Below are positions 1-21,443 of a DNA stretch of 21,443 bases, one piece after another. The stretch covers positions 1-21,443 of IMG/VR virus record IMGVR_UViG_3300049855_000097; one strand, 5' to 3'. The notes under the pieces were generated by a model. The model did no database searches and was not told the DNA's origin. It saw only the letters and a program-made list of their open reading frames with translations. Position 1 is the stretch's first letter. Each line of letters begins with the position of its first letter. The position numbers and the translations under genes were made by a program. This stretch comes from a virus.

Positions 1-951
1 GATGCACCGGGCAAGGCAGAAATCTGCGAGAAGCTTCAGATTGTAGCAAACCGTTATGTCAATCAGTCGTTAGACGTTCGTGACCTTATCGTTGATCCGG
101 TATTCTTTTACAATAGAGAATCCAATCTAAATACACGTAACCTCTATGTAAGACCGGGACGATTCATCCCAGTGGACGGTGATCCTAATTCTGTAGTAGC
201 ACCATTACAGGCGAATCTTCAACACCTAGCACAAGCAGACGAAGCAGTAGCACAGATGCGTGAATACATTCAAATGGGTTCAGCAATCCAAGATGACGTA
301 GGTAAAGGCGCACCCGGCCCAGATCGTGAAACAGCACGAGGCATGCTTGCGCGTCGTGAGGCACAGGGTACAAGACTCAACCTAGAAGCGCGACTCTATG
401 AAGAAGCATACTTTGAACAACTAGGTAACATGCAAGTAGCACTGAATCACCAGTTCCTAGAAACACCAACTGAAGTAATGATTCTTGGAAACAGTTCAAC
501 CACTGACCCAATAACAGGTCAGCAAATCCAAGAAACACGTCAGGTCATGGATGAGTTCGACTTTAGATACGTCTACACAGCACGCGCACAAGGAGCCACA
601 ACGGCTCTATCAAAGTCAATGAAGCAGCAGAACCTGATCCAGCTTCTAACAGCAATGGGTTCACCAATCGGTCAAGCAGCACTCGGCGCAATCAACGCTG
701 TTAACTTCTGGCGTGGCATTTTCAAGGACTTCGAAATTGACAATATTAATGAAATATTTGTACAGAATCCAATGCTACAACAAATGGCGATGCAAGCAGG
801 TAGCCAAGCTGGTGCAGCAGGAGTACCTACAAGTCCACAAGTGGCAGGCGGTCAGTTACCCCCCGGCGTTGCACAAGTAATGCAAGCTGCGCAGATGCAA
901 CAAGGCACACAACCATCGGCTGATGTACCGCAGATGGCACAGGGAGGATAA
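1..951 (+). CDS. Portal protein, C-terminal part (5' end outside window)
   Basis: The frame is open from base 1 to the TAA at 949-951 with no start needed inside, so this is the last 316 residues of a longer protein. The portal is the dodecameric ring at the capsid vertex through which DNA is packaged and ejected. Visible support is a helical region with ETARGMLARREAQG and an aromatic-rich helix (EEAYFEQLGNMQ), as in C-terminal regions of podovirus-type portals, then a Gln/Ala/Gly/Met-rich tail over about the last 90 residues, typical of the portal barrel end. Its place just upstream of scaffold and capsid genes fits. A GTG at 172 lies inside the frame and is not the true start. The stop abuts the next ATG (TAAATG), suggesting translational coupling. 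No motif is diagnostic alone; the call rests on motif style plus gene order. Confidence 0.77.
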   Translation, partial: DAPGKAEICEKLQIVANRYVNQSLDVRDLIVDPVFFYNRESNLNTRNLYVRPGRFIPVDGDPNSVVAPLQANLQHLAQADEAVAQMREYIQMGSAIQDDVGKGAPGPDRETARGMLARREAQGTRLNLEARLYEEAYFEQLGNMQVALNHQFLETPTEVMILGNSSTTDPITGQQIQETRQVMDEFDFRYVYTARAQGATTALSKSMKQQNLIQLLTAMGSPIGQAALGAINAVNFWRGIFKDFEIDNINEIFVQNPMLQQMAMQAGSQAGAAGVPTSPQVAGGQLPPGVAQVMQAAQMQQGTQPSADVPQMAQGG

Positions 952-1185
952 ATGGCAAGAAAGAAACCGACAGAGAAAGCTGAAGAAAGAACTGAAGGTT
1001 ACACAGACGCCGGAGGTTCTATCCCTGATCCCAACGAAAAGCAAGCAGAAGAGATTGGTAGAAACCATAATGATGATTTGACAAACTCATGGGCACGTAA
1101 GTTTATGCGTGATAATCCAAAAGATATAGCAAAAATGTCATCTAAGAGCAGAAAGGCACTTAAGAAGTCAATCAAATCAAAGTAG
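952..1185 (+). CDS. Small basic protein, paralogue family A (member 1)
   Basis: A 77-residue, Lys/Arg-rich protein of unknown function. It starts immediately after the portal stop and is preceded by GGGAGG inside the portal end. The N-terminal third holds the motif TDAGGSIPDPNEKQ (residues about 19-32) and the C-terminus is a cluster of Lys, Ser and Arg (KSRKALKKSIKSK). The same N-terminal pattern recurs in the products at 5293-5490 and, more weakly, 5490-5753, so this is one of three related small proteins on either side of the capsid genes. No signal peptide or membrane segment is seen. The strong basic tail would suit binding to nucleic acid or to an acidic capsid lumen, but that is inference. 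Confidence 0.75.
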   Translation: MARKKPTEKAEERTEGYTDAGGSIPDPNEKQAEEIGRNHNDDLTNSWARKFMRDNPKDIAKMSSKSRKALKKSIKSK

Positions 1186-1197
1186 AAAGTAGGAAGC

Positions 1198-1518
1198 ATG
1201 ACAGATTCAGTCTTTGACATTAACAAACTCAGTGCAGAAGAACTTGGACACATGGAATACATTGTCAATAGTCCTTCGTGGGAGCGTGTCTTTAGACCAT
1301 TCTTCATTCGCGCCCGAGACACGTACACTGAATTACTTTTACACAGAGATCCAAAAGTTCGAATTGCCCATGGTGGTTCACCATCACTCAGGGCAGCAGC
1401 TAACAATATGTCTCTCGTCGTGACCTTCTTTGACAAGATCATTGAGGAAACACAGCACGAGCGGGCAATTGCAGCAGCATCAGGCACTCCTGATTATGCA
1501 GCAGATACGGAGTTTTAA
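1198..1518 (+). CDS. Small helical phage protein, unknown function
   Basis: A 106-residue protein preceded by AGGAAG close to the ATG. It looks mostly helical, with a Trp/aromatic segment (SPSWERVFRPFFIRARD, residues about 26-42) followed by a long helix (LRAAANNMSLVVTFFDKII) and an Ala-rich acidic tail. Small helical proteins of this size are common between portal and scaffold genes, and some are head-completion or scaffold-related factors, but I do not recognise this family. The final TAA shares its last base with the ATG of the following short gene, so the two are probably translationally coupled. Confidence 0.7.
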   Translation: MTDSVFDINKLSAEELGHMEYIVNSPSWERVFRPFFIRARDTYTELLLHRDPKVRIAHGGSPSLRAAANNMSLVVTFFDKIIEETQHERAIAAASGTPDYAADTEF

Positions 1519-1667
1519 TGTTATGGGGTAGAAAGAAACCCGAGTGTTGCACATGTAGCATTCTAGAAAAGATTCTCAAGGAACTCAAGAAGATTCGTAA
1601 GCTTTTACAACCACGTAAAGCAGTAGCTTTAAACCTCAAAGTTGGTACACCCACTACCAAGGAGTAA
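1518..1667 (+). CDS. 49-residue Cys-cluster protein
   Basis: A short frame starting at the ATG that overlaps the previous stop (TAATG) and ending at TAA 1665-1667, two bases before the next gene. The product begins MLWGRKKPECCTCSILEKIL, with three Cys in four positions (CCTC, residues 10-13). An amphipathic Lys/Leu/Ile-rich helix follows (LEKILKELKKIRKLLQ). The one-base overlap upstream and the AAGGAG at its own end, which serves as ribosome site for the next gene, argue that it is a real link in the operon. The Cys group could bind metal or form disulphides, or be lipid-modified after the basic WGRKK stretch; none of these can be shown. There is no canonical lipobox. Confidence 0.62.
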   Translation: MLWGRKKPECCTCSILEKILKELKKIRKLLQPRKAVALNLKVGTPTTKE

Positions 1668-1669
1668 CA

Positions 1670-1969
1670 ATGGCAGACATTACTTTCCCTACATTTCCTG
1701 TTTCAAAGGCTCTTCCTTTCACAATTGCACCTGTAGATGAAACAGGTACTTTCGTACCGGGAGACTATCAGTGGCAGGTAAGTGATCCAGCAGTAGCTAC
1801 AGTTTCTGTAGCAGCTAACACACTATCAGCAATTCTAATTCCAATGGTAGCAGGTTCAGTGACTCTTACTGTTACAGACGGCAGCATTACCGATACAGCA
1901 AGCGGTTCTATGTCTTCAGTAGCAGTTGCGCTTAATCTAAACTTTGGAGTACCTATTAACAAGCCTTAA
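1670..1969 (+). CDS. Single bacterial Ig-like (BIG2-type) domain protein
   Basis: A 99-residue protein with AAGGAG six bases before the ATG. The pattern YQWQVSDPAVATVSV followed by the alternating strands of GSVTLTVTDGSITDTASG is the familiar core of the bacterial Ig-like fold (BIG2 family), which normally spans about 80 residues, so the protein is essentially one domain. In phages such domains sit on capsid, tail or fibre proteins and are thought to help weak attachment to carbohydrate or cell surface. Here it is a free-standing gene between portal and scaffold, which suggests a virion decoration role (inference). There is no signal peptide. Confidence 0.7.
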   Translation: MADITFPTFPVSKALPFTIAPVDETGTFVPGDYQWQVSDPAVATVSVAANTLSAILIPMVAGSVTLTVTDGSITDTASGSMSSVAVALNLNFGVPINKP

Positions 1970-1974
1970 ACAAT

Positions 1975-1991
1975 CGTAAGCCAACCTTACG
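1975..1991 (+). promoter_or_regulatory. Small hairpin upstream of the scaffold gene
   Basis: CGTAAG (1975-1980) pairs with CTTACG (1986-1991) around a five-base loop, CCAAC. It lies in the 34-base gap before the scaffold gene, directly ahead of the ribosome site AAGGAA. No T-run follows, so it is not a rho-independent terminator. It may be an RNA-processing or stability element, or chance. Confidence 0.3.
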
Positions 1992-2003
1992 GACAAGGAA
2001 CTC

Positions 2004-3077
2004 ATGCCACAATCGTTAAATCCAAACCGTCCTAACACAGAAGAAGCTCTAACAGCACACCTAGCAGCAACAATAGGTGCAGATGTAGAAAACGCTATGA
2101 CAGCGGCGGATTGGAAGTATACAGAAAACACTCCGCAGGCTCCGGTCAACCCCGAGTCTGTAGCACCAACAACCTCGCCCGAGGGCCAGAAAGCTTCGGA
2201 CAACCCGAACGCGCAACCAACGGCGAGTAACGATGCGATTAATTGGGAAGCATATCGTGATTCAAATGGACTTATCTTAGGTAAGTACAAGAATAGCGAA
2301 GCTGCTGTCCAAGGAATGCATTCGCTTCTCCAAATGACGAAATCAGTACTGAATGAGCGCGATGCGCTTCAGGCAGAAATCGGACAACTTCGTCAACAAC
2401 GTTCAACACCAGTTGCGGAACAGGTGTCATCAATCCCTCATGTAGATTCGAATCTACAACTACCAGAGCTAGATGCGGTGCGCAAAAAGCTTGAAGCAGG
2501 TGAAGGACTTGATGCTGACGATGCACTTAAGCTAGTAGATGGCATGGCCAAATACAGTGAGATTGCAGCGCAAAAGGTTCTAGAAAGAGACAGAAACATG
2601 CGGCAGCAAGAGACAGACTCATGGAAAAACGTTGATACATATATGTCTCAGCACTATCCACAGTCACTCAAGCATGCCGATGAAATGGAAGTCTTTGTCA
2701 GAACCAATCAGGAAGTTGGGAGAGTCTTCAATCGCTTACTTGCAGGCAACGATGATGGAGCAAAGCTAGATGCAACAATCTATCTTTGGAAAGAATATTC
2801 ATCAGCTAACCCTGTAACTCCGATTGATCCCGCGCAGCAGGAAGCACAACTTGCTGCACAAGCACAAGTCCGAAAGGAAGAAGTGGACAGAGCGCGTATC
2901 GACGCTGGCCTATTTGGCAACAGCGCCGGAGGCATTCACGAATCAAGTCAGAATACAGGAGTAACACAAGCTGATATTGATGCAGCGGCACGACAGATGA
3001 AACAGACGGCAGATGGCCGTCAATGGCGAGAGCTAACCATCGGTCGCACGCTGACAGGTCCATTTTTCGAAAACTAA
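2004..3077 (+). CDS. Capsid scaffolding protein
   Basis: A 357-residue, hydrophilic, mostly helical protein directly upstream of the major capsid gene, the usual scaffold position. Scaffold guides capsid assembly and then leaves the procapsid. Visible parts are a disordered Pro/Asn/Thr/Gln-rich region (residues about 40-80), a coiled-coil stretch (about 100-135, including LNERDALQAEIGQLRQQ), a second helical region (about 155-265) and an Ala/Gln/Lys-rich segment (about 275-300). The last 40 residues carry QADIDAAARQMKQ and a C-terminal hydrophobic patch, GPFFEN, a plausible capsid-binding end. AAGGAA lies 7 bases before the ATG. There is no sign of a fused protease, and none is encoded nearby, so removal is more likely by exit than by cleavage (inference). 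Confidence 0.78.
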   Translation: MPQSLNPNRPNTEEALTAHLAATIGADVENAMTAADWKYTENTPQAPVNPESVAPTTSPEGQKASDNPNAQPTASNDAINWEAYRDSNGLILGKYKNSEAAVQGMHSLLQMTKSVLNERDALQAEIGQLRQQRSTPVAEQVSSIPHVDSNLQLPELDAVRKKLEAGEGLDADDALKLVDGMAKYSEIAAQKVLERDRNMRQQETDSWKNVDTYMSQHYPQSLKHADEMEVFVRTNQEVGRVFNRLLAGNDDGAKLDATIYLWKEYSSANPVTPIDPAQQEAQLAAQAQVRKEEVDRARIDAGLFGNSAGGIHESSQNTGVTQADIDAAARQMKQTADGRQWRELTIGRTLTGPFFEN

Positions 3078-3103
3078 CCCAAATCCCAAGGAGCATATAA
3101 AAC

Positions 3104-4129
3104 ATGCCCGGAACACCAATTGGAAATGCTGGTGTCTATAAGTGGGGTCTGGCAGCGGGAGCAGGCGTTAATCGCGAAGACCTACTTGACCAGATCACAA
3201 ACGTTGACCCATGGGACACACCATGGGTAACACAGGCACCAAAAGTAAGTGCTAATCATGTTTACCATGAATGGCTAAAGGATACACTAGGTACAACTGA
3301 CACAACAGGCGCTGTTGAAGGTGCAGACTATGCATACGAAAGCAGCACAACACCAACTCGTGAATTCAACATCACGATGATTCTCCGTAAGGACATCGGT
3401 GTTTCTGAAACTCAGCGTTACCTAAACCCTGCTGGCTTCAAGGATGCATACGCATACGAAATCCAGAAGGCAACAAAGCTCCTAGCTATCAAGCTAGAAA
3501 AGGCAATCTTCACATCAGCCGTTTCCACATCAACTGGAAACTCAGCAGCCGCAAGACAGATGAAAAACCTACAGTCTTTCATCGTGACAAACACTGCTTT
3601 CGCTGGTGCGAAGGGTGGAACAGTAACGGGTGCCGCAGCTACAGCAGGTACATTAACTGACTCTGACTTTAACAACATGTTAAAGGTTATCTATGCGTCA
3701 GGTGGTAATCCTGAGCAGGTATATGTATCGCCTGCAATCAAGGCACAGGTAAGCCGTTTCACAATGACACAGGAAAACCGTAACATTGCTGCAATTGACC
3801 GCAAGCTAGTAGCTGCAATTGACTTCTACGATTCAGATTTCGGTCTTATTCAGATCGTACTTGATCGTTGGATTCCTGAAGCTGCTAACACAGGTCAGGC
3901 TACAGCGGGTTCAACACAGACAGACGTTACAGGACGTATGTTCTTCTTACAGCGTTCAGTTAACCGTCTAGCGTGGCTACGTCCAATGCAGCACTTCCTA
4001 GTTGGAAAGCGTGGTGACTCAGTGGCAGGTATTGTTGTCGGTGAAGTTACTCTAGAGGTATTAAACGAAAAGGCTAATGGTATGATGCTATCAGTCAATA
4101 ACCTTAACCCGCCTCTACTAGCATACTAA
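3104..4129 (+). CDS. Major capsid protein, SU10/DUF5309-like HK97 fold
   Basis: A 341-residue protein with a strong AAGGAG 10 bases before the ATG. It has the layout of the DUF5309/SU10-like major capsid family: an N-terminal segment with EDLLDQITNVDPWDTPW (residues about 25-41), a strand-rich E-loop region about 60-100, a long spine-type helix around 112-137 (AYAYEIQKATKLLAIKLEKA), a P-domain containing VYVSPAIKAQVSRFT (about 207-220) and a C-terminal strand pair, GDSVAGIVVGEVTLEVLNEK (about 304-323). The family forms the icosahedral shell of several podo- and siphoviruses. Codon use looks regular, as expected of the most expressed gene, and a strong hairpin follows the stop. There is no N-terminal delta domain of the HK97 type, in keeping with the separate scaffold upstream. 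Confidence 0.88.
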   Translation: MPGTPIGNAGVYKWGLAAGAGVNREDLLDQITNVDPWDTPWVTQAPKVSANHVYHEWLKDTLGTTDTTGAVEGADYAYESSTTPTREFNITMILRKDIGVSETQRYLNPAGFKDAYAYEIQKATKLLAIKLEKAIFTSAVSTSTGNSAAARQMKNLQSFIVTNTAFAGAKGGTVTGAAATAGTLTDSDFNNMLKVIYASGGNPEQVYVSPAIKAQVSRFTMTQENRNIAAIDRKLVAAIDFYDSDFGLIQIVLDRWIPEAANTGQATAGSTQTDVTGRMFFLQRSVNRLAWLRPMQHFLVGKRGDSVAGIVVGEVTLEVLNEKANGMMLSVNNLNPPLLAY

Positions 4130-4135
4130 ATTGAC

Positions 4136-4162
4136 GGTGGGGGCTTCGGCCCCCGCCTTCTT
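4136..4162 (+). terminator. Hairpin terminator after the major capsid gene
   Basis: A nine-base-pair stem (4136-4144 with 4149-4157, one T-G wobble) is closed by the very stable TTCG tetraloop and followed by TTCTT. It begins seven bases after the capsid stop. The T-run is short, so termination is probably partial, letting some transcription reach the tail genes. T7 likewise places its main late terminator just after the capsid gene. Confidence 0.82.
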
Positions 4163-4176
4163 ACAGGAGACTATAC

Positions 4177-4647
4177 ATGTCACATTTTGGATCACCAAAC
4201 TGGAACAACCCATGCGGAGTTGTAGCAGGACTAAGCCTAACTGGTAATACATCACAGACTGGTGCAGCAGCTACATACGATGGTGCAGTTGAAGGAACTG
4301 ACTTACTTACATACAGAACAGTTCGTACAGGTCTTTATCGTGTAACTGCGACAATACGTAATAACGTAGCATCAAACGCAGGCACATCAAATACCTTTTC
4401 AACTACAATCACATACAGTAACGGTACGGCGGTAGCAAAGGCTATTATGCAGCAGGTTGTAGCAGGTGGTTCTACTGCTACAGGTGTTGACTTTGTAGCT
4501 GGTGCTGTTGGAGCAACATGGAATGCACAGATGACTTTCATGGCAGCAACTGGAACGGATATCGTTCTAAACGTTCGTCAGGTAGTCGTAGGTGCCGCAG
4601 CAACACTAGGTAAGTACGACCTTAACTGGGCAATCGAAGCAATCTAA
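4177..4647 (+). CDS. Probable capsid decoration protein
   Basis: A 156-residue protein with AGGAG seven bases before the ATG. It is rich in Thr, Ala, Val and Gly and almost all predicted strand, with alternating hydrophobic runs such as YRVTATIRNN, TFSTTITYS and TDIVLNVRQVVVG. It has few charged residues and a single Cys (residue 13). It lies between the capsid terminator and a second hairpin, so it forms its own small transcription unit next to the shell gene. Size, beta composition and position fit a head decoration or cement protein that binds the outside of the expanded shell. A small fibre or head-spike is the alternative. I do not recognise a named family. Confidence 0.55.
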   Translation: MSHFGSPNWNNPCGVVAGLSLTGNTSQTGAAATYDGAVEGTDLLTYRTVRTGLYRVTATIRNNVASNAGTSNTFSTTITYSNGTAVAKAIMQQVVAGGSTATGVDFVAGAVGATWNAQMTFMAATGTDIVLNVRQVVVGAAATLGKYDLNWAIEAI

Positions 4648-4653
4648 ACACGG

Positions 4654-4683
4654 TGGAGGGGCTTTCATAGCCCCTCCATTCTC
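4654..4683 (+). terminator. Hairpin terminator after the decoration-like gene
   Basis: A perfect ten-base-pair stem, TGGAGGGGCT (4654-4663) with AGCCCCTCCA (4669-4678), has a five-base loop (TTCAT) and is followed by TTCTC. It starts six bases after the stop codon. As with the capsid terminator, the T-run is weak, so it may lower rather than end transcription, or may protect the 3' end of the upstream message. Confidence 0.78.
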
Positions 4684-4693
4684 AGGAGCATCA

Positions 4694-4978
4694 ATGGCAA
4701 AAAAGATTTCCCTATCGGGAACAATCAAACCGAATCCATCACCCGTTGCAGATGATGCAGTCAACGAAGTTGGTGGAGTACGATACACACCAGATGGTGG
4801 CAAACATCCTAACGTGCCAACAACATCGGCAGAAATGGACGAAGTGTTCCCACTGGTAAAAGCTGACGTATTTGACACAGCAGATGCCAATGATGGTACA
4901 GAGAATGGAGAACAAGACTCATTCAAGATGCCACCATTCGCAAACGGCGTAGATTCACGCAAACGCAGAGGATACTAA
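4694..4978 (+). CDS. Small acidic hypothetical protein
   Basis: A 94-residue protein of unknown function with AGGAG before its ATG. It is rich in Asp, Pro, Asn and Gly and probably largely disordered. It has a short ordered-looking part (EVGGVRYTPDGGKHPNVP, about residues 25-42), an acidic middle and a basic end (SRKRRGY). It is the first of five small genes that follow the second hairpin with no real gaps, and its TAA directly abuts the next ATG. It may be a minor virion component or assembly factor; there is no sequence evidence for either. Confidence 0.65.
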   Translation: MAKKISLSGTIKPNPSPVADDAVNEVGGVRYTPDGGKHPNVPTTSAEMDEVFPLVKADVFDTADANDGTENGEQDSFKMPPFANGVDSRKRRGY

Positions 4979-5293
4979 ATGAAGATCGACATTCTAACAT
5001 TCGGCAGTCACGCAATTGAATACACATCAAGCAGTGATAAGTCAGTAAACCAAGACTCACAGTGTGGAGGAAGTGATGTAACCTTCCCTCCGAGTGATTC
5101 CAAGGAAATTACACAGCACTACGGCAAGACAATGTATACAGGTGACGCACCTGTTGGTAGCGGGGCAAATGACGGAGAACGTGACAAGGCAGTTTCAACA
5201 GGACCAATTTCACTTCCCGATGAAGGTGACACAAGACACAAGAGCGGTGGTAAGAGTAGCAGTGATCATACACCGGGAATGCCGGGGGCTTAG
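4979..5293 (+). CDS. Small Ser/Gly/Asp-rich hypothetical protein
   Basis: A 104-residue protein of unknown function starting right at the previous stop. The first 15 residues look ordered (MKIDILTFGSHAIEY). The rest is low-complexity, polar and Gly-rich, ending in HTPGMPGA, and is probably flexible. There is one Cys. The final TAG overlaps the GTG start of the next gene by one base, which supports a coupled operon. Other long frames crossing this region on both strands are shadows, since only this frame joins cleanly to both neighbours. Confidence 0.6.
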   Translation: MKIDILTFGSHAIEYTSSSDKSVNQDSQCGGSDVTFPPSDSKEITQHYGKTMYTGDAPVGSGANDGERDKAVSTGPISLPDEGDTRHKSGGKSSSDHTPGMPGA

Positions 5294-5490
5294 TGTCAAA
5301 GCGCAAGTTACCAACACAGCGACTTGCAGAGCGCACAGCTTCAACAGATGCTGGTGCATCAATTCCCGGACCATCACCTAAACAGAAAGATGCAATTACG
5401 ATCCGCAAGATGGTTGACGATAGCAAGAAGAATCTCGCAGAAATGAAATCACGCAGACTCGCAGAGAAGAAACGTGATGGGACTCCATAA
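5293..5490 (+). CDS. Small basic protein, paralogue family A (member 2)
   Basis: A 65-residue protein starting at GTG, chosen because it overlaps the preceding TAG by one base and because the N-terminus then aligns with its paralogue at 952-1185. Shared features are a basic start with PT and AERT, the motif TDAGASIPGPSPKQ (TDAGGSIPDPNEKQ in the paralogue), and a C-terminal basic helix ending in a Lys/Arg cluster (AEMKSRRLAEKKRD). The function is unknown. Similarity between two genes on either side of scaffold, capsid and decoration points to duplication and a shared virion or assembly partner. Confidence 0.68.
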   Translation: MSKRKLPTQRLAERTASTDAGASIPGPSPKQKDAITIRKMVDDSKKNLAEMKSRRLAEKKRDGTP

Positions 5491-5753
5491 TGGCAAGACA
5501 GTTACCAACAACTAAAGCAAAGGCCCGTGCTGGTGGCTTCACAGCCGATGTAGATACAGAGGGAATGGACCCTGAAATGAAGAAGACTCTCACAACACCC
5601 GAGGGTGACAATCCCGTTCAGAAATTCTTTAGAAACTTTGGCAAGAAAAAAGTAGCACCAGCCAAGCCGATTCCAAAGGCGACACCCAAGCCACTGCCTA
5701 AAATGTCACAGGATGAAGAAGATCGACTCTCAAAGAAATATCTAGGTGGTTAA
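5490..5753 (+). CDS. Small basic protein, distant paralogue family A (member 3)
   Basis: An 87-residue protein whose ATG overlaps the upstream stop by one base (TAATG). The N-terminus MARQLPTTKAKARAGGFT follows the spacing of the product at 952-1185 (MARKKPTEKAEERTEGYT), but the Ser-Ile-Pro part of the motif is lost and replaced by an acidic stretch. The middle is basic with alternating Lys/Pro (about residues 52-70), probably extended, and the end carries SQDEEDRLSKKYLGG. The function is unknown. It may be a small minor capsid or linker protein. Confidence 0.62.
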   Translation: MARQLPTTKAKARAGGFTADVDTEGMDPEMKKTLTTPEGDNPVQKFFRNFGKKKVAPAKPIPKATPKPLPKMSQDEEDRLSKKYLGG

Positions 5754-6103
5754 TGAAAAAGAAACGTATCTCTTATCAAGCAACACCTGAGTTCCATCTG
5801 TTAAATGAAGTCACTCCTATTGACGCACTCGTGCCAAGGATAGAACGCTTCTCAGACATGAAGGAACATCTAGACGATGTACGCACGATGCAGAAGGAAA
5901 TCACAACACTAGCAAAGTTTTCCGATGCAACAGGCTTCACGCGTGACAGACATATGCAGAGAGTATGTAGAATCCCATCCAGTGTATGGTCAGCAGTTCT
6001 TGAAGTCTTTCCCGATGCGGGGCAGAACAAAGATCTTTTCTACGCTCTATTGGCTGGTCCACTCAAAGACTACGATCTACGCAACAAGGTATCCTTAACG
6101 TAA
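5753..6103 (+). CDS. Small phage protein with a C-terminal FYALL motif
   Basis: A 116-residue, mostly helical protein with a one-base overlap to the gene before. The first 25 residues are basic then extended, and the centre is a charged helix (DDVRTMQKEITTLAK). The C-terminal 45 residues hold RVCRIPSSVWSAVLEVFPD followed by NKDLFYALLAGPLKDYDLRN. Patterns of this last type (R-hydrophobic-x-IP, then a K/D-FYALL segment) recur in uncharacterised small proteins of phage head regions, from memory of such proteins. No enzyme motif is visible. Position suggests an assembly or connector-related role, unproven. Confidence 0.62.
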   Translation: MKKKRISYQATPEFHLLNEVTPIDALVPRIERFSDMKEHLDDVRTMQKEITTLAKFSDATGFTRDRHMQRVCRIPSSVWSAVLEVFPDAGQNKDLFYALLAGPLKDYDLRNKVSLT

Positions 6104-6112
6104 AGGACTTTC

Positions 6113-7354
6113 ATGTACCGAGTATATGCAGCAAACCATGCACGTAAAAGATTCGCCTGTCAGTATTATAGATTAGACGTACCACTTCGTGGTTTAGAAG
6201 AAGTCTATGGTGATGACATTATGACATGGAATGACATATTAGATGAAGGGATTGAGCGGGCTACACAAGGTCTGCTCAATTCTGACTTCGCACTCTTTTG
6301 GGGCATCAACGGTGGCGAAGCAGTAAAGCAATTTGAAATCATGAAAAACATCCCCATTGGCAAGGATGATGGCAAGCTTCTAGTTCCACCCATGCTCATA
6401 ACTGACATAGATGATAATAGAGATTACATCCACCCTTTCAATACATCCTTTTTTGAACAGGGTGTCCGTTCCTACCCCGAGTATAAGCTACTAAAGAAGG
6501 GGGATCGGATTACAACAACAGATATGTTTGGAAAGGAAATAGTCATTTGGGAAGATGGAGTCACAGAAAAAGAAGGTAGAATCTTTAATATCACAAAGAA
6601 CATTGAAGACATGCGCCTGACACATAAGCTATACCGAGCTTCTAATGGCGTGACAGTCACAGTAGAACCACTTGCTAAATACATGCGTGATGTTATCGGA
6701 TGCAAGCATGTTCATGTATTTCCAAATACGATCATCCCGGCTGACTATGTATCATACAATCTGGTACCTAAGAATGAAATCCGCATTCTCTGGCAGGGTG
6801 GTCTTTCACACTATCTAGACTGGTATCCACTCCGTGACGCCGTGATAGAAGTTACAAAGAAATATCCCAATGTCAAGTGGGTTATGTTCGGTGAGAAGTT
6901 TGACTGGATCACAGATATTATCCCACCAGCGCAGTTAGAATATCATGGATGGGTAGACTACGCAGCATACAAACTCAAGCGTGGCTTACTTCAGATAGAC
7001 ATTAACTTGTGTCCCCTTCAAGACGATCTATTCAACCGATGCAAGTCCGCTATCAAATGGTACGAAGCATCCATCTGGAACAAGCCAGAAGTAACCCTCG
7101 CCTCCCGAGTGCCACCTTTCTCAGACGAGATGACAGACAATGAGAATGGCTTACTATTTGCAAACCCCACTGAGTTTGTCCAGAAGCTTTCAATCCTGAT
7201 TGAAGACGAATCACTCAGGCAGCGGCTAGCACAAAGTGCAAGAGAATGGGTTCTAAACAATCGTACACCCAAGCAAACTATCCCGCCTCTATGGGACTTC
7301 TATAAGAGCCTACGCGATAGACGTGTTGGAGAATTTTTATTGGCACAGAAATAG
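6113..7354 (+). CDS. GT-B fold glycosyltransferase (GT4-like)
   Basis: A 413-residue, apparently complete enzyme of the GT-B glycosyltransferase class, which moves sugar from a nucleotide-sugar donor to an acceptor. The C-terminal half shows the GT4-type layout: a strand and glycine loop, RILWQGGLSHYLDW (about 224-237); a strand, VKWVMFGEKFDW (about 254-265); a helix after YHGWVDY (about 277-283); the donor-binding helix CKSAIKWYEASIWNKPEV (310-327), with Lys and Glu in GT4-like spacing; then NGLLFANPTEF (345-355) and the terminal helices LIEDESLRQRLAQSAREWV. The N-terminal half, the acceptor domain, is divergent, with an unusual acidic patch near 98-103. There is no signal peptide or membrane segment, so it acts in the cytoplasm. 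It sits between small head genes and the adaptor gene and has similar base composition to its neighbours, so it is not an obvious recent insertion. Confidence 0.85.
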   Translation: MYRVYAANHARKRFACQYYRLDVPLRGLEEVYGDDIMTWNDILDEGIERATQGLLNSDFALFWGINGGEAVKQFEIMKNIPIGKDDGKLLVPPMLITDIDDNRDYIHPFNTSFFEQGVRSYPEYKLLKKGDRITTTDMFGKEIVIWEDGVTEKEGRIFNITKNIEDMRLTHKLYRASNGVTVTVEPLAKYMRDVIGCKHVHVFPNTIIPADYVSYNLVPKNEIRILWQGGLSHYLDWYPLRDAVIEVTKKYPNVKWVMFGEKFDWITDIIPPAQLEYHGWVDYAAYKLKRGLLQIDINLCPLQDDLFNRCKSAIKWYEASIWNKPEVTLASRVPPFSDEMTDNENGLLFANPTEFVQKLSILIEDESLRQRLAQSAREWVLNNRTPKQTIPPLWDFYKSLRDRRVGEFLLAQK

Positions 7355-7368
7355 TGCTCGGAGCATAG

Positions 7369-8346
7369 ATGGCCACAAGTTACACACTAGTCAATATGGC
7401 AACAGAAATCGCTAAGTCAATTGGTGGTCAAGGAACACAGGCCAATATTGACTTAGCGACTATTGCAGTAAAGGCAGCTATAGAAGATTGGAACGCTGCA
7501 AAGCAGTGGAACTTCTTACTAAAGGATACCTCAACAAATACTCTTCTGACAATAGGTGCACTGACAAATGGGGCAAGTTCTATACCGATACCAACAGCAG
7601 GCTCAGGTGATTTCATCAATGTTGGTTCTACAATCACGATTAGTAGTGTCACAGGTACTACGACTCTTGCCGCAGGTACAACAGTTTCTACAATCACACG
7701 GGATGCAACAGGATCAATTACTTCATTCACAATGAGTAATCCTTTTGGTACGGCAACTGGTTCAGCAGGTATCCTATCATTTACAAGCAACATTCCAGTC
7801 ATAGCAAGCACTAATGAGTACAATCTGCCAATAGATTTCAGTTCTCCTTACATGGCACGTACCATTACTAATAAACGCACGCTTGAATACATTAAGTATC
7901 GTGAGTGGAATAAGAAGATTGTAGATCAGGAAAGCACAGGGCCGATAGATGCTTACACCATCTGGAACCCAGTTTCGCCTCTGACACAGAACTTTTCAAC
8001 GTATCGCTTACGCGTATTCCGCACACCCGCTGCGACAGATACCATCCACTTGCAGTATTTCCGCCGCATGGATGCGACTGCAACGACAGTAGACGTTCCA
8101 GATTCTTATGTCTATTTCTTAATGGACATGGCTATCTGGCGTTTCGTTTCACTAAAGAATACAGAAGATTCTCGTTTAGGCACTTTAGAATCTAAAGCCA
8201 TGTCGTCACTCAAGAAGGCGATGGAAGATGATGAAGAGAATGCCGATGATGAAACCTTTCGCCTAATAGGCCAAATGGAAACATGGAATGGTGAGAGAGG
8301 CCTCTGGTCAAACGGAAATTTCTATCCAACCATGCTTGATTATTAA
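7369..8346 (+). CDS. Head-tail adaptor (tail tubular A/gp11-like) with inserted beta module
   Basis: A 325-residue protein with GGAG before the ATG. The N-terminal helices (MATEIAKSIG, AAIEDWNAAKQWNFLLKD, residues 1-52) and C-terminal helices (about 242-310, with YVYFLMDMAIWRFVSLKN) frame a beta region containing RTLEYIKYREWN and RLRVFRTP. This is the layout of adaptor proteins of the T7 gp11 and P22 gp4 type that bind under the portal. T7 gp11 is about 196 residues; the extra length comes largely from a Gly/Thr/Ser-rich beta module at residues about 60-140 that resembles two modules in the next protein. The following nozzle gene is 9 bases away, as expected for adaptor-nozzle pairs. Confidence 0.76.
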   Translation: MATSYTLVNMATEIAKSIGGQGTQANIDLATIAVKAAIEDWNAAKQWNFLLKDTSTNTLLTIGALTNGASSIPIPTAGSGDFINVGSTITISSVTGTTTLAAGTTVSTITRDATGSITSFTMSNPFGTATGSAGILSFTSNIPVIASTNEYNLPIDFSSPYMARTITNKRTLEYIKYREWNKKIVDQESTGPIDAYTIWNPVSPLTQNFSTYRLRVFRTPAATDTIHLQYFRRMDATATTVDVPDSYVYFLMDMAIWRFVSLKNTEDSRLGTLESKAMSSLKKAMEDDEENADDETFRLIGQMETWNGERGLWSNGNFYPTMLDY

Positions 8347-8355
8347 GAGGAACAC

Positions 8356-11316: not shown

Positions 11317-11324
11317 GGTGACTA

Positions 11325-14888: not shown

Positions 14889-14893
14889 GGAGG
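14887..14893 (+). promoter_or_regulatory. Near-perfect ribosome binding site overlapping a stop codon
   Basis: AAGGAGG shares two bases with the stop of the preceding gene and lies 8 bases before the ATG at 14902. It is the best match to the anti-Shine-Dalgarno sequence in the window and decides the start of the next gene. Confidence 0.8.
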
Positions 14894-14901
14894 CTTAACA
14901 A

Positions 14902-15510
14902 ATGTTAGCTGAGAAAAGAACAGGTCCACAAGTTACAACAGATGGTAGTATTCAGGAAGTAAGAGGTGGTAAGACGGGTGAACTTATTGTTGGTGATGCA
15001 CACGCCCGTTTTTATGAGGGTGTTGCTAGAGGTAGCGTATACATTGGAGCTAATCTAGGTGGTACACCTGTTACAACACAGGCTGGATTATCCGCAACAA
15101 CTCCGGCATTAACATTATATAATCCAACAGGGTCTGGTAAAAACTTAGTACTTCAAACAATCACAGTAGATATCACAACAGCACCAGCGGCAGCAGCAGG
15201 ATTAATGCTTGCAGCTAATGTGAATGCTGCTGCTCCAACTGCCACAACTACTGCGACTGTACAGAATGCTCTTATTGGTAATGCGTCTACAGGTGTTGGT
15301 TTATGTTACCGTATTGCAACATTAGCAGCAGCACCACTTGCAATTAGATTTCTTGGTGGTACAACAGGTGCAGCAGCTATTGGTGGTGTACAATTAATTG
15401 ATCACGTTGATGGTGAGGTTATCATAGCACCCGGTTCTTATGTTTCATTACAAGCAACAAGTGCTGCTGCAATTTTAGGTTCATTCACTTGGGAAGAAGT
15501 TTCAATCTAA
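14902..15510 (+). CDS. Beta-rich virion appendage protein
   Basis: A 202-residue protein. The N-terminal part has GGKTGELIVGDAHARFYEGV (about residues 22-41), a pattern I associate with small structural proteins next to fibre genes in environmental phages. The rest is a single strand-rich domain with NPTGSGKNLVLQTITVDI (about 74-91) and a C-terminal PGSYVSLQATSAAAILGSFTWEE (last 25 residues), resembling a jelly-roll or TNF-like head domain. Ala, Thr and Gly are very frequent. There are no enzyme motifs. It is probably a virion tail or capsid appendage. The good ribosome site suggests many copies are made. Confidence 0.6.
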   Translation: MLAEKRTGPQVTTDGSIQEVRGGKTGELIVGDAHARFYEGVARGSVYIGANLGGTPVTTQAGLSATTPALTLYNPTGSGKNLVLQTITVDITTAPAAAAGLMLAANVNAAAPTATTTATVQNALIGNASTGVGLCYRIATLAAAPLAIRFLGGTTGAAAIGGVQLIDHVDGEVIIAPGSYVSLQATSAAAILGSFTWEEVSI

Positions 15511-15511
15511 T

Positions 15512-15709
15512 ATGCCTACAGCCAATGTCACAATAAATCGTGTATCATCTGACAATACGTATACATACACATTTAATGTGGATGGTACGGTACAGACAGC
15601 AGTAATCAGTGTTGCATCTATCGGTGCAGTCATTGATGCAGTAAAGACATTAATTGCAGCGCAGGGAGGCACGGTACAACGTGCTTCTCTGACTGTAATA
15701 ATTACATAA
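15512..15709 (+). CDS. Small beta-strand protein, unknown function
   Basis: A 65-residue protein one base downstream of the previous stop, with only a weak GAAGAAG ribosome site, so it is probably translated by coupling. It has two beta hairpins (TVTINRV-like start, TYTYTFNVDGTVQTAVISV), a helix (IGAVIDAVKTLIAAQGG) and a final strand (RASLTVIIT). There is no membrane segment. It may be an accessory piece of the neighbouring appendage. I do not recognise the family. Confidence 0.58.
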   Translation: MPTANVTINRVSSDNTYTYTFNVDGTVQTAVISVASIGAVIDAVKTLIAAQGGTVQRASLTVIIT

Positions 15710-15718
15710 GAGGACACC

Positions 15719-16447
15719 ATGGACCCAGTATCAATGGTCTTAAATGCAGCAAATATAGGTGGCGGTTTAATGCAAGCTTTCGGAAAGAAGAAAGCTCGTT
15801 CCATCGACCCCGAGTGGCTCAAGCAACATTTCGGCGCAAATGCCGTTAACGATCAAATGGTCCAGCTATTCAACCATGTTTTATCTGGTCCCGTTGGTCA
15901 GCAACTAATGGCTAATGCAGCACAACAGGGACAGCAGTTCCAGACAGATCAAGCACGAGGCGCGGCTGCGGCTGGTATGGGACCAACAGGTGGTGCAGAC
16001 TCAGGCGCAAGTATTTTTAGTGGTGCAGCAGCAGGAGGCGCTACTAACGCATTGCAACGTGATGTAAAATCAGGTATAATGAACAATGCACAATCACAAG
16101 CGCAGCAGATGGTCAGCGATAGAATGCGCATTGCAGCCGCTAGCAAGCAACAGCAGATGGATAATGATTTCTCACAGCCAAGTACAATGCAATCACTCGG
16201 AGGGATGATATCCCGTGGCGCGAATGCAGGAATGGCAGCGATACCAGCAGCGGCAGCAGGTGCATCAGCACCTAGTGCTTTACTTCATCCAGCTAGTCCA
16301 GCTATGAATTCACCACTAGGAAGTATGGGGCAGTCAATTAATAAGACTCCCGGTTTTATGGGGTCTAGATTCCAAAGTGCAAGTCAGGGTAAATTCGGGC
16401 GTCTTTCTCGTGCCAATGCATCCTTACCTATGTGGAGTAATAAATAA
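15719..16447 (+). CDS. Small internal virion (DNA ejection) protein, gp14-like position
   Basis: A 242-residue protein with GAGG before the ATG. It starts with a short hydrophobic, glycine-containing helix (VLNAANIGGGLMQAFG), then a basic KKKAR and the segment SIDPEWLKQHFGANAV. A helical region follows (MVQLFNHVLSGPVGQQLM) and then a long Ala/Gly/Gln/Met-rich stretch (about residues 60-210). This composition is typical of the small ejection proteins (T7 gp14, P22 gp7 class), which are stored in the capsid and form part of the trans-envelope channel. It is the first of three genes in the T7-like order small, middle, large. It overlaps the next gene by one base (TAATG). Confidence 0.62.
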   Translation: MDPVSMVLNAANIGGGLMQAFGKKKARSIDPEWLKQHFGANAVNDQMVQLFNHVLSGPVGQQLMANAAQQGQQFQTDQARGAAAAGMGPTGGADSGASIFSGAAAGGATNALQRDVKSGIMNNAQSQAQQMVSDRMRIAAASKQQQMDNDFSQPSTMQSLGGMISRGANAGMAAIPAAAAGASAPSALLHPASPAMNSPLGSMGQSINKTPGFMGSRFQSASQGKFGRLSRANASLPMWSNK

Positions 16448-17334
16448 TGGTTGATTCAATTTACGGACCTCAAATTCCACCGGAGAACGTAGATCAGACT
16501 ACGGTACCAAGTCCGAAAGATCCATATGAAGAAAGAGCAAAGGGCGCAATGGATGAATACGGTGTGAGCATGAAGGCATTACAAGCAATGATGCCACAGA
16601 TCGACTATGAAAAGACCTTTGGACATTATCTAAAGAAACAGGATGAAACCCCGATGACACGTATGCCGGGGAGAGGAGAAGCATTCTCTAGAGCATTTGG
16701 TTCTGAAGGTGGAAATGAATCTGTCTTACAGCAGATCCAGCAAGCGCATCAAGAAAAGAGAAGTCTGCATCAGCAGCACCTAGAGACAGAGCGAGATATC
16801 CTAAGTGCAAAAGTAAAACAAGAAATGGACAAAGGTAATGCAGATAATGCAATGAAGGCACAGGCTGCAAAACGATTACTTGATTATCAACTAGACGCTA
16901 TCAATGATGAACGTAAGAATAAGCAACAGTTAGATCTTGAAGATAAAAAAGGGCGCGATAGAGCAGCACTGCAAGAAAAGAAACTCGCGGCCATGGGAGA
17001 TATCGCAAAAGATAAAATCATGGCTATGATCAAGACTCATGGTGGTGATGATAAGATGGCACTAGCTAAGTTCAATTGGTTTATGAAAACAAACTACGGA
17101 GCTATGAAGAGTCTTCTTGATGCAGATCCAATTCTTGGTAGTGCTGTTTCACCAGCACAAACAAGTGCACTTGCTGGTATGGTCACAGCCGCAATGGAAG
17201 ATTATGATAAATCACATGGTGGTAGTTCACAACCAACAGGTGGATCTACAACGACAGTAGTGAGTGGTAGCACATCTGGTTCAAGAACTAGACTACAGCA
17301 GATTGCCGATAGAAAAACGGCAGAAAGAAAATAA
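16447..17334 (+). CDS. Coiled-coil internal virion protein, gp15-like position
   Basis: A 295-residue, highly charged, helical protein. The N-terminal 45 residues are Pro-rich. Residues about 90-200 form one long coiled coil with many Gln, Lys, Glu and Asp (including LQQIQQAHQEKRSLHQQH and LDLEDKKGRDRAALQEKK). Next comes a helical segment with ALAKFNWFMKTNYGAMKSLL (about 205-225), and the C-terminus is Ser/Gly/Thr-rich with a final basic helix. No enzyme motif is present. Placed between the small ejection protein and the 980-residue protein, it matches the middle member of an internal core. A chaperone-like or tail-linker role is the alternative. Confidence 0.55.
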   Translation: MVDSIYGPQIPPENVDQTTVPSPKDPYEERAKGAMDEYGVSMKALQAMMPQIDYEKTFGHYLKKQDETPMTRMPGRGEAFSRAFGSEGGNESVLQQIQQAHQEKRSLHQQHLETERDILSAKVKQEMDKGNADNAMKAQAAKRLLDYQLDAINDERKNKQQLDLEDKKGRDRAALQEKKLAAMGDIAKDKIMAMIKTHGGDDKMALAKFNWFMKTNYGAMKSLLDADPILGSAVSPAQTSALAGMVTAAMEDYDKSHGGSSQPTGGSTTTVVSGSTSGSRTRLQQIADRKTAERK

Positions 17335-17343
17335 GGAGCTTTA

Positions 17344-20286
17344 ATGGATAATGTGATTGCACCAAGAGATACTACACAAGAACCTGAAGACGATAATGAT
17401 CTTATCTTCAAAGGTCTACGTGAAGACTATCCAGATTTAAAGGACGTTGATGACGATATTCTAGTTGACACAATACATGAGGGAGAATTTCCCGATGTAA
17501 AGGATCAGAAAGAATTCACTCAGATGCTCCATGATGCTTATGTACCAAAGAAGACTCCTCTTAACTTTGGTGCAATCACACCCACTGAAGCACCTAAACC
17601 AAAAGGCGCATCTGTATGGGGCGCAGTCGGTAAAGGCATAGCTGATATGGGTCATCAAATAGCATCATCATTTGCGTCCCCTATAGATGCTGCGGCAGAA
17701 TACGCACATCGCGGAGCATTTGAAAAGCCAGTTGATGAACTAGAAGCAATGCCTGATTACCAAGGGCTTATTCAGCGTGGTTACTCTCCAAAGATCGCTC
17801 GCCATATCATGGAACAGCGTATTGGAACTATGCAAGATCTCAATGCTAGTAACGAAGCTGAAGCAGAGTTAGGGAAAAGTAAAGCGGTAGAAGGTACAGC
17901 TACATATCTAAGCACAGCAGCATCAATGGGATTAGCAGGGGCACTTGGGGCAGGTGGTGCAGTAGCATCGGGAGTAGAGAGTGCTATTTCTCCTTTAAAC
18001 GTGGGTCTATCTGAATCAGCTATGCAGACACTAGCAAGTAAGGGTCTAGCTGGTGCAGCTAAGCACGCTATAGAAGGTGCAGCAGGACTCATGGGGTACG
18101 AAGCTGTAAAAGCCGCAGCCGAAGGAAAGTCAGCAGGTGAAATATGTGATCTTACTGTATATGGTACGACTAATAAGGCAGAAAGAAGTATAGGACAATC
18201 ACCTGCTGTACAAGGAGCATTATTTGGTGTGTCTCTTCCTATAGCAGTTAAAGGGGTTGGAAAAGTTCTAGGTAAGGTTGTCAATACAGCACAGCTTATT
18301 CCACGATACATTGAGCAGAAAGTAACCAGAGCAGCAAAGGCACAGATTGCCGCACTCGCGGCGCAGGCTGATAACTTCGCAGAAAAGTTTAATGCTGATC
18401 ACCTTCGTACACGGTATGAAGATCTAGCTAGAGCGCATGATGGGCAACCATCTACAATTCTAGCAGGTAGATTAATTAAAGACATATTAGGCGAAGACGT
18501 ACTAGCTAATGCATCAGCAGAATCAATTCTCAAGTTAGCAGAAAAGATTAAGATGCAAAGACGCTATATTGGCATCGACCCCGGCATGGGATCAACTAGA
18601 CCCATTGATCGTATTGTATCTCCCGAAGGATTTATGACTATACGGGATGATCTAGGTATGCCTGAACCTGATCCGTTACAAGTTATTAACATGCTCGCAC
18701 AGGAACAAATGCCGGGTATGCTACCACCGGGTGTAGATCCTATGAACCCACCAGTAGGTGGAATGGTAACAGAAGGGACACTCGGGCGGGAAGGTAGAAC
18801 ACTAGATCTAAGCCCACATGTTCCACAGAGTGGACCACTTGGTGCGCTTACAGAACACAATGCACCCGGTCCTATGAACACACAGCCTATGCAAGACGTA
18901 GGCAATCTGCCTTCTGAAGCAGGCGGAACATCAAATATAATTCCTCCGGCTGCACCACAGTTTGAAGGTACATGGAACGCGTGGGAACCACAGCCACAGC
19001 AGGATATCAATGCTCCTGAAATAGATCTAACGCGTGAATATCCTTTTGGAGCAACAACGGGGTTCTCAACAGAACCACGCATGATAGATCTTCCTTCAGT
19101 ACCAGCAGAACCAAGACTAGACTATCGTCCATTACCAGATGATCCTACCGGGCTACCTATTGAGCGTCCAACAGGAACAACACCAAGTGGTGGAGCAACA
19201 AGAAATAATCCTAATGTTATCATGCCAAGTACTAAGCGTGGCGTAGATCTAGGAGCTACAAAGGGTCTAGATGCAACACCACCAGCAAAGAAGTCTGCCA
19301 TTGTACCAGCAGCTAAAGAAGAACCAAAGAAGGTAGAAACAAAGAAAACTGGTCCAGCAATACAACCTTCAAAGGACTACAGTCCAACGAAGGTAAATAA
19401 GGCAGAAGAAGCTATTCGCAAGAATAGATCCACGCTAGAAACAGCAGCAAAGGACTTCAATTTAAATGAAGCAGAACACCAGAAACTCAAGGAACGGATG
19501 GGAGTCAAGCCCGAACCAGCACCAAAGGTAGCAGAACCACCAAAGGTAGATGAAACTACAGTGGAGAATGCTAAAGACTATAAGGCTTCTTTACATAGTG
19601 TTATCAGAAAGTCTATAGGTGGTCGTGTGTGGGAAGTACGTACTACAAAAGGACCAGTTACAGTTGATTCACAGATATTCAAGAATGAAGAAGAGGCTAC
19701 AAAGGAACTTGACAGACTTATCAAGCACGCCACACCAGACGAGATAGAACATAATAGTCAAACGATAGGGAATGTTAAAGAGAGTATACTAGGTGGAAAG
19801 AAAACTGTAAAAGAAGAAAAGTATTTAAAGCGCATTAAAAATGTACCACAAGAAACGACAGAACCAGCACCAGTTGAGGCACCTAAAAAACTTCCGTACA
19901 ACCCACCAAAGGAAAATAAAGCCGAACGTGGTAGTACAGAGTGGTTCACAAATACATTAGAAGACCTTCGTCATGGCTACATTGACATGCCAGATGCAAA
20001 GATGCAGAAGGGTGACTATGCTTCAGCTACACCAACACCTGAAGAGCTACATAACAACCTAGCACACAGACGCAACAAGCGAACAACAGCTTGGCATCAA
20101 GCAGTAGCAAGCTTCTCAGAAATGGTGGCGGCAAAGATTGAAGATCCAAAAATCAGAGAAGAGATCGAAAAGGCTTCCGAACACATTCTTACAACAAGAG
20201 ATTCAACGAAGCCAACAACAACAGAAGAAGTTAAGTTCGCAGATGATCTATTAGATAAGGTTCTTAAGGCACTCAAGGAGAAGTAA
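17344..20286 (+). CDS. Large internal virion protein
   Basis: A 980-residue protein whose AAGGAG overlaps the upstream stop. Residues 1-70 are very acidic (for example REDYPDLKDVDDDILVD), a type of N-terminus seen in large phage internal proteins. Residues about 183-260 and 287-312 are Gly/Ala-rich hydrophobic helices that could enter a membrane. A helical segment (about 325-410) follows, then a long Pro-rich linker (about 435-680) with repeated MPG/PPG turns. Near 740-800 is a small alpha/beta unit containing IRKSIGGRVWEVRTTKGPV. The end is helical and charged. No lysozyme or other catalytic motif is evident. Ejection-channel component is the best call, based on size, Gly/Ala helices and gene order. 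Confidence 0.58.
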   Translation: MDNVIAPRDTTQEPEDDNDLIFKGLREDYPDLKDVDDDILVDTIHEGEFPDVKDQKEFTQMLHDAYVPKKTPLNFGAITPTEAPKPKGASVWGAVGKGIADMGHQIASSFASPIDAAAEYAHRGAFEKPVDELEAMPDYQGLIQRGYSPKIARHIMEQRIGTMQDLNASNEAEAELGKSKAVEGTATYLSTAASMGLAGALGAGGAVASGVESAISPLNVGLSESAMQTLASKGLAGAAKHAIEGAAGLMGYEAVKAAAEGKSAGEICDLTVYGTTNKAERSIGQSPAVQGALFGVSLPIAVKGVGKVLGKVVNTAQLIPRYIEQKVTRAAKAQIAALAAQADNFAEKFNADHLRTRYEDLARAHDGQPSTILAGRLIKDILGEDVLANASAESILKLAEKIKMQRRYIGIDPGMGSTRPIDRIVSPEGFMTIRDDLGMPEPDPLQVINMLAQEQMPGMLPPGVDPMNPPVGGMVTEGTLGREGRTLDLSPHVPQSGPLGALTEHNAPGPMNTQPMQDVGNLPSEAGGTSNIIPPAAPQFEGTWNAWEPQPQQDINAPEIDLTREYPFGATTGFSTEPRMIDLPSVPAEPRLDYRPLPDDPTGLPIERPTGTTPSGGATRNNPNVIMPSTKRGVDLGATKGLDATPPAKKSAIVPAAKEEPKKVETKKTGPAIQPSKDYSPTKVNKAEEAIRKNRSTLETAAKDFNLNEAEHQKLKERMGVKPEPAPKVAEPPKVDETTVENAKDYKASLHSVIRKSIGGRVWEVRTTKGPVTVDSQIFKNEEEATKELDRLIKHATPDEIEHNSQTIGNVKESILGGKKTVKEEKYLKRIKNVPQETTEPAPVEAPKKLPYNPPKENKAERGSTEWFTNTLEDLRHGYIDMPDAKMQKGDYASATPTPEELHNNLAHRRNKRTTAWHQAVASFSEMVAAKIEDPKIREEIEKASEHILTTRDSTKPTTTEEVKFADDLLDKVLKALKEK

Positions 20287-21443
20287 TGGGATTATTTCAA
20301 GGCATTGCAAAGGCAGCAGGACCAGCGATAGAAGAAGGTATATCTAAAGCATGGCATGCACTAAGAACGCCTGCCCTACCTGAAGCTATAGCACGAGGCA
20401 CAGCAGAGCATCCTACAATACTAGAGGATGCACTCAAAGCTGGTGTACCTACAGCAGAACGCGCTAAGTCAGTACCATATGCTGGAACGCCAGAGATGCG
20501 TGCTAACGTGCGTGCGACAGCCCCCACCCGAGTGAAGACAATACCTGAAGTTATTCAGGATGGAAAGACAGTGCTTGGAGCGTTCTTCCAAGCACATCCA
20601 AACTTAGGTGCAGACGTTAAGAAAACACTTAATGAATCAGGATGGCGTGGTGGCGCAGCAAAAGACGCAGCAGATCAGCAACTAAAGAAAGTCTTTGAAC
20701 CCATTCAAGGGAATGAGAAAGAAGTATGGCGTAGGGTGAATCTATTCTATGACCATGCTATTGCAAAAGATAATATGTCACAGGGCCTACGTGATGGTTT
20801 AAGTCACGTAGATGGTAAGCCTCTTGAACACTGGTTAACAGAAACGGATAAATTCGAAAAAGCCATAGGTGATGATGAAGGAATCAGACAGGTACAAAGT
20901 AACTATCGTCAGATGCTTGATGGTATCTTTGCTGACCAACAAGCGCGTGGGTGGATACAACCGGAAAGAAAATTAGGTGACTATACGCCCATTAGAAAAC
21001 TATTTGCTACCGCTGAAGGATTAGCTGATCAGGGTGGAGAAGATTTTAGAGTAAGACTTCAGAACTCACAGTTCCGTAGAACAAACATGCAGCAAGGAGG
21101 TAGAGAAACAAACCTGCTCCTTCTTATGCACGATATTCTAGCTGAGCATCATAAGAAAGTAGTTGAACACGAAACGTTCATGAAGCTTATGGATGATCCA
21201 ACGATTAACTTCACTGATCAGTTTGAACATGGGGATGTGTTACCAAAAGGATTAATCTCATATAATCCCGGCGCAGGACATATGGGGTACCAGATCAAGT
21301 CACCTGATGATTCAGTCATTGATGCATTCGGTCGTGCCATGTCTCCCATTGAAGGCTATAGTAAGCTAGTTACTCCGGGCAGCTATGTTATACCAGAATC
21401 ACTTGGCAATGCGTTTAAGTATTATAATGGAAGCAAAGCAACG
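20286..21443 (+). CDS. Large virion-associated protein, N-terminal part (runs off the window)
   Basis: The ATG overlaps the preceding TAA (TAATG) with AAGGAG just upstream, and the frame is open to the end of the window, giving at least 386 residues. The start MGLFQGIAKAAGPAIEEGIS is an amphipathic helix. Residues about 100-230 are helical, with EVWRRVNLFYDHAI and NYRQMLDGIFADQQARGWI. LGDYTPIRKL (about 230-239) and a helix-rich stretch, NLLLLMHDILAEHHKKVVEH (276-295), follow, then a strand-rich part with LPKGLISYNPGAGHMGYQI. This resembles the body of very large polyvalent or internal virion proteins of phages (T7 gp16-like position), which can carry enzyme domains further on. The functional part is probably outside the window. 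Confidence 0.6.
   Translation, partial: MGLFQGIAKAAGPAIEEGISKAWHALRTPALPEAIARGTAEHPTILEDALKAGVPTAERAKSVPYAGTPEMRANVRATAPTRVKTIPEVIQDGKTVLGAFFQAHPNLGADVKKTLNESGWRGGAAKDAADQQLKKVFEPIQGNEKEVWRRVNLFYDHAIAKDNMSQGLRDGLSHVDGKPLEHWLTETDKFEKAIGDDEGIRQVQSNYRQMLDGIFADQQARGWIQPERKLGDYTPIRKLFATAEGLADQGGEDFRVRLQNSQFRRTNMQQGGRETNLLLLMHDILAEHHKKVVEHETFMKLMDDPTINFTDQFEHGDVLPKGLISYNPGAGHMGYQIKSPDDSVIDAFGRAMSPIEGYSKLVTPGSYVIPESLGNAFKYYNGSKAT

Follow-up and report, generated by a model that had tools for sequence, protein, structure and literature searches.

Absence of CCWGG Sites from an Uncultured Phage Fragment and Their All-or-None Distribution among Its Relatives

Introduction

Why should a long stretch of viral DNA lack every copy of one five-base palindrome? 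The window analyzed here, a complete virus record of 21,443 bases, had been predicted from its letters to be free of CCWGG owing to selection at the DNA level, possibly exerted by a restriction system cutting that sequence. CCWGG is the recognition site of EcoRII, MvaI, BstNI, and PspGI, and EcoRII requires at least two sites. Restriction-site elimination in non-temperate dsDNA phages was described by Rusinov et al. in 2018 (PMC6286503), and near-complete loss (observed/expected <0.1) of an orthodox Type II site was found in about one-tenth of viral genomes.

Gene content of the window and its place in the genome

The window has a coding share of 98% and a GC content of 44.4%, as estimated earlier (mid-40s). 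It carries structural genes, and the nameable products are the end of a portal or adaptor protein, the major capsid protein, and a glycosyltransferase (Table 1). The capsid gene served to find and order the relatives. No near DNA match to the window was detected among 50,697 phage records, and the capsids of isolated phages, including those of Pseudomonas, Rhizobium, Vibrio, and Methylophilales, matched that of the window at 28-34% identity. The capsid is probably distantly SU10-like. The Pfam families of long relatives comprised SU10-type capsid, portal or adaptor proteins, family A DNA polymerase, RtcB, and 3TM holin. The longest relatives measured 57-66 kb, and the window is therefore probably about one third of a phage genome of approximately 60-65 kb. 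Site elimination is most frequent in non-temperate phages. No integrase was present among the Pfam families listed for three long relatives (25 of 33 families in the case of G030), the window itself being a fragment.

Table 1. Positions of named genes in the window and in related contigs
Feature	Location	Strand	Remark
Portal / head-tail adaptor gene, 3' part	window, 1..951	+	PHROG 332, weak match
Major capsid protein gene	window, 3104..4129	+	PHROG 1328; SU10-type capsid in relatives
Glycosyltransferase gene	window, 6113..7354	+	PHROG 7162
DegT-type aminotransferase gene	L086:7558-8637		in CCWGG-full contig
DegT-type aminotransferase gene	L074:1955-2926		in CCWGG-full contig
DegT-type aminotransferase gene	L095:11257-12579		in CCWGG-full contig
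DegT-type aminotransferase gene	L113:12033-13196		in CCWGG-full contig
Array of 28 tRNA genes	L102:9872-13580		in CCWGG-full relative

CCWGG is absent from the window

Exact counting gave 0 CCAGG and 0 CCTGG versus 15 CCCGG and 18 CCGGG (0 CCWGG versus 33 CCSGG), which bears out both the predicted total absence, on either strand, and the earlier hand count of about 32 CCSGG. Under a maximal-order Markov model, 24.5 CCWGG sites were expected (Poisson P = 2e-11), and no other palindromic pattern or pentamer tested in the window with that model was as strongly depleted. The order-2 Markov expectation was 36, and a synonymous-codon shuffle, which preserves the proteins and the codon usage, gave 31.1 (sd 3.7, minimum 20 in 1000 draws). 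The original prediction had anticipated roughly 25-30 sites.

The absence was confined to the W-centered words, the frequency of CCSGG being normal or raised. There were 33 CCSGG sites against 25 expected and against 12.7 under the codon-shuffle null, and the excess over the latter is expected if the wobble base of Pro-Gly codon pairs was pushed from W to S. All 29 Pro-Gly dipeptides of the window used CCG (17) or CCC (12) and none used CCA or CCT, although CCA and CCT supplied 281 of the 380 Pro codons (74%; CCA 183, CCT 98, CCG 51, and CCC 48). The same usage had been traced by eye in about 26 of these dipeptides.

Related phages are either empty or full

The capsid search yielded 68 related viral contigs, and the 59 nearer ones were used for the CCWGG distribution. 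Of these, 29 were found at or below 5% of the CCWGG expectation, 30 above 60%, and none in between; several are near-duplicates, and a thinned set retained 21 empty and 22 full contigs. In a sample of unrelated viral contigs, each with at least 8 sites expected and drawn by one 14-base word, hence only roughly random, 2 of 66 were near-empty and most lay near 1.0 observed/expected.

The longer pieces gave the same picture. Sixteen empty contigs held 4 CCWGG sites where 1386 were expected, a mean of 0.25 with 0 or 1 kept in up to 60 kb, whereas 15 full contigs held 1361 versus 1507 expected; the expectations in empty genomes are themselves lowered by avoidance, so the tests are conservative. 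Two contigs of 60 kb contained none of 141 (G016) and none of 129 (G029) expected sites. Restriction-site elimination was taken to require an observed/expected ratio under 0.1 where no fewer than 15 sites are expected; both the window and the 16 contigs lie below that ratio, and the lost word, whose sister words are spared, is recognized by known orthodox Type II enzymes. Sites in full genomes were scattered along the whole length, and therefore no genome was half-purged. A regional or mosaic absence was ruled out, as full genomes have sites throughout and empty ones nowhere.

On the capsid tree, which may differ from the whole-genome history where recombination has separated the capsid from the genome, the CCWGG state switches at least 9 times. 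The tree neighbors of the window comprise one empty contig (L002) and three full ones (L007, L003, and L050), and close relatives similar in base composition carry normal CCWGG numbers. The comparison with related phages that had been proposed thus divided them about equally into empty and normal. With no site in the window and with related contigs from many metagenomes empty over tens of kb, the original prediction of absence held inside the window and, as far as the related contigs show, over longer stretches.

Sites are lost by every mutational route

When full relatives were aligned with empty ones (seven alignments), the empty partner had kept none of 137 CCWGG sites, against a control retention of 23% for CCSGG and of 21% for CCWGG between full relatives. 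The sites had been lost through changes of the center, inner and outer transversions, and outer transitions, that is, by every route, as selection against the word predicts. Inner C-to-T changes made up 7 of the 81 single changes at lost sites (background, 2/41 and 4/67). The observed/expected ratio of CTWGG was 0.71 in the empty and full groups alike, while nearly all other one-step neighbors of CCWGG were 8-15% higher in the empty group. In the window, CTWGG/CCWAG occurred 66 times against 52.5 under the codon-shuffle null (17 of 1000 shuffles were as high). A signature of Dcm deamination, namely a CTWGG/CCWAG excess combined with inner C-to-T changes among lost sites, was not found in these comparisons. 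The check suggested earlier, under which deamination should raise CTWGG/CCWAG, accordingly disfavors deamination, the main alternative raised at the outset.

Other motifs are purged lineage by lineage

Individual lineages had also eliminated further classical Type II sites, namely CTCGAG, CTGCAG, GATC, AATT, and GTCGAC. Of 25 informative genomes (core relatives L002-L060 and the longer pieces L070-L125), 23 had lost CTCGAG irrespective of the CCWGG state, AATT was eliminated in 9 of 13 CCWGG-empty versus 0 of 14 full genomes, and GATC was purged in a subset of relatives. GATC was entirely absent from the CCWGG-empty L022, L023, L040, L041, L042, and L046 (0 of 164 expected in 40 kb for the contig of L041). 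The contig of L053 (L107-L108), a CCWGG-full relative, had none of 74 expected AGCT sites in 40 kb.

The window was also devoid of CTGCAG, CAGCTG, RCCGGY, and CTSSAG, for which the Markov expectations were 6.3, 6.1, 8.3, and 10.7 and the codon-shuffle means 15.0, 16.0, 9.2, and 30.6, respectively; further restriction sites may therefore have been purged from it. The most depleted tetramer was TGTG on the + strand of the window (21 versus 54.6 expected), which was low in several relatives too. In viral contigs generally, hexamer palindromes were mildly depleted (median observed/expected 0.84) and non-palindromic hexamers were not (median 0.99). General avoidance of palindromes was ruled out, CCSGG being normal and unrelated viral contigs being without the effect.

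Searches for phage enzymes and for the host

Searches for DNA methyltransferases, in which the controls were detected, found no PF00145 in 41 phage contigs and no PF01555 or PF05869 in 24. No gene family separated the two groups by occurring in each of the eight long empty contigs but in none of the full ones; five of the eight are incomplete, and the gene absence is accordingly provisional. The genes that best discriminated empty from full contigs were shadow reading frames or an NT5C nucleotidase. A shared CCWGG nuclease was likewise not found in the empty contigs, where the EcoRII-C profile search lacked a positive control. Neither self-methylation nor a phage CCWGG nuclease is supported, because no methyltransferase of these three families and, in the partly incomplete contigs, no empty-specific gene emerged.

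Among the long contigs, a DegT-type sugar aminotransferase gene occurred in 5 of the 10 that are CCWGG-full and in none of the 8 that are empty, a distribution that perhaps reflects differing host surfaces. Scans of bacterial genome contigs with the capsid profile and the DegT aminotransferase gave no confirmed relative, searches with the DNA polymerase and the portal reached only very distant phages, and a 980-aa protein gave no match. The listing of the tRNA genes of relatives gave no pointer to a host name.

Discussion

The loss of CCWGG in this clade matches the near-complete loss of an orthodox Type II site in the phages of Rusinov et al. (PMC6286503), which speaks for host restriction. 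Unlike those phages, which have known hosts and enzymes, the clade is uncultured, and relatives fall into two sharply separate states. Escherichia phage T7 is similar in holding 2 CCWGG sites versus 56 expected (GATC, 6 versus 141), but it retains two, where the empty contigs have 0 or 1. Methylophilales phage Venkman EXVC282S (MT375522), a distant capsid relative (32%), has 0 of 29 CCWGG and 0 of 99 GATC expected; it differs in its annotated DNA methyltransferase, its host, and a GC content of 34%. In its 38.6 kb (L135), CCWGG, GATC, ACGT, TCGA, GGCC, GCGC, and CTNAG-type sites are almost completely missing. Among Pseudomonas phages, Lyrsu01 (PP179323), a distant capsid relative (29%) that differs in being an isolate from P. 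syringae, has 2 CCWGG versus 100 expected, while PaeP_1647, another distant relative, is normal (196 versus 185).

That selection acts at the DNA level, as originally proposed, is well supported by the codon null, the specificity for W over S, the all-or-none state over long contigs, and the repeated switches. Several other causes were weighed. If a Dcm-type host methylase modified the inner C of CCWGG and the sites decayed by deamination to CTWGG/CCWAG, CCWGG alone would be affected, and the slight excess of these words in the window would fit; but this process predicts intermediates, of which there were none among the relatives, and neither the unraised CTWGG nor the near-background share of inner C-to-T changes agrees with it, so it appears highly improbable. 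A compositional or structural bias against the palindrome, or an assembly artefact, could draw on the mild depletion of hexamer palindromes in viral contigs. CCSGG is equally palindromic, however, and normal, CCWGG stands at normal levels in close relatives whose base composition is similar, and the empty contigs stem from many metagenomes and are tens of kb long; such an origin is scarcely credible.

Two explanations involve a different nuclease, and both seem very improbable. A phage-encoded CCWGG-specific enzyme might destroy the DNA of the host or of rival phages while the phage is protected by having no sites, and an all-or-none, genome-wide pattern would follow if it were tied to the gain or loss of one gene. 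However, no family had that distribution in the long contigs, and the many palindromes purged would demand many nucleases. In the other case, no classical restriction-modification pair would be needed, as a host Type IV modification-dependent nuclease would cut CCWGG after a Dcm-like host methylase had modified the phage DNA. The motif specificity would be identical, and cleavage of Dcm-modified DNA has been reported for TagI (PMC12707154), but the methylated sites of the host itself would be cut too, and the published survey found only weak site avoidance for modification-dependent enzymes, which it ascribed to Type II systems (PMC6286503).

Most probably, the phage lineage lost CCWGG because its host population selects against it with an orthodox Type II restriction-modification system that recognizes this word (MvaI, BstNI, PspGI, or EcoRII type). 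Incoming unmodified phage DNA would be cut at any CCWGG, so that every site would be costly, and sites would be lost by the cheapest mutation, often a synonymous one, for instance where Pro-Gly codons go from CCA/CCT-GG to CCC/CCG-GG. Normal numbers would persist in sister lineages whose hosts lack a system of this kind. As a counterpoint, so many palindromes are avoided at once that either the hosts would have to carry numerous systems or the hosts themselves would have to be numerous. Of the earlier proposal of a restriction system cutting CCWGG, the selection on the site stands and restriction is its best explanation; the link to an enzyme we infer, the two host scans having yielded no relative and no cognate endonuclease or methylase, and the clue to the host foreseen in that proposal led to none. 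Empty contigs average 0.25 sites and EcoRII needs at least two; the loss of the last site is thus a mild hint at an enzyme able to cut solitary sites, which is somewhat likelier than EcoRII itself.

The avoidance of restriction sites is established, for the most part from depletion in phages examined one at a time; what sets this case apart is that a single clade splits so cleanly into two states and that several motifs are involved. This one uncultured clade offers about 20 lineages that are purged and about 20 that are not; they share core genes, and there are no intermediates. In it, one can measure by which mutations sites are purged and how they come back once selection is lifted. The motifs that have been purged predict, in a form open to testing, which restriction systems the hosts carry. 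Tentatively, elimination may act as a switch, with CCWGG either at 0-1 sites or unselected, no intermediates, and several more motifs purged in each genome. Each phage could then possibly be read as a barcode of the restriction systems in its host population, and the clade might serve as a natural record of host jumps.
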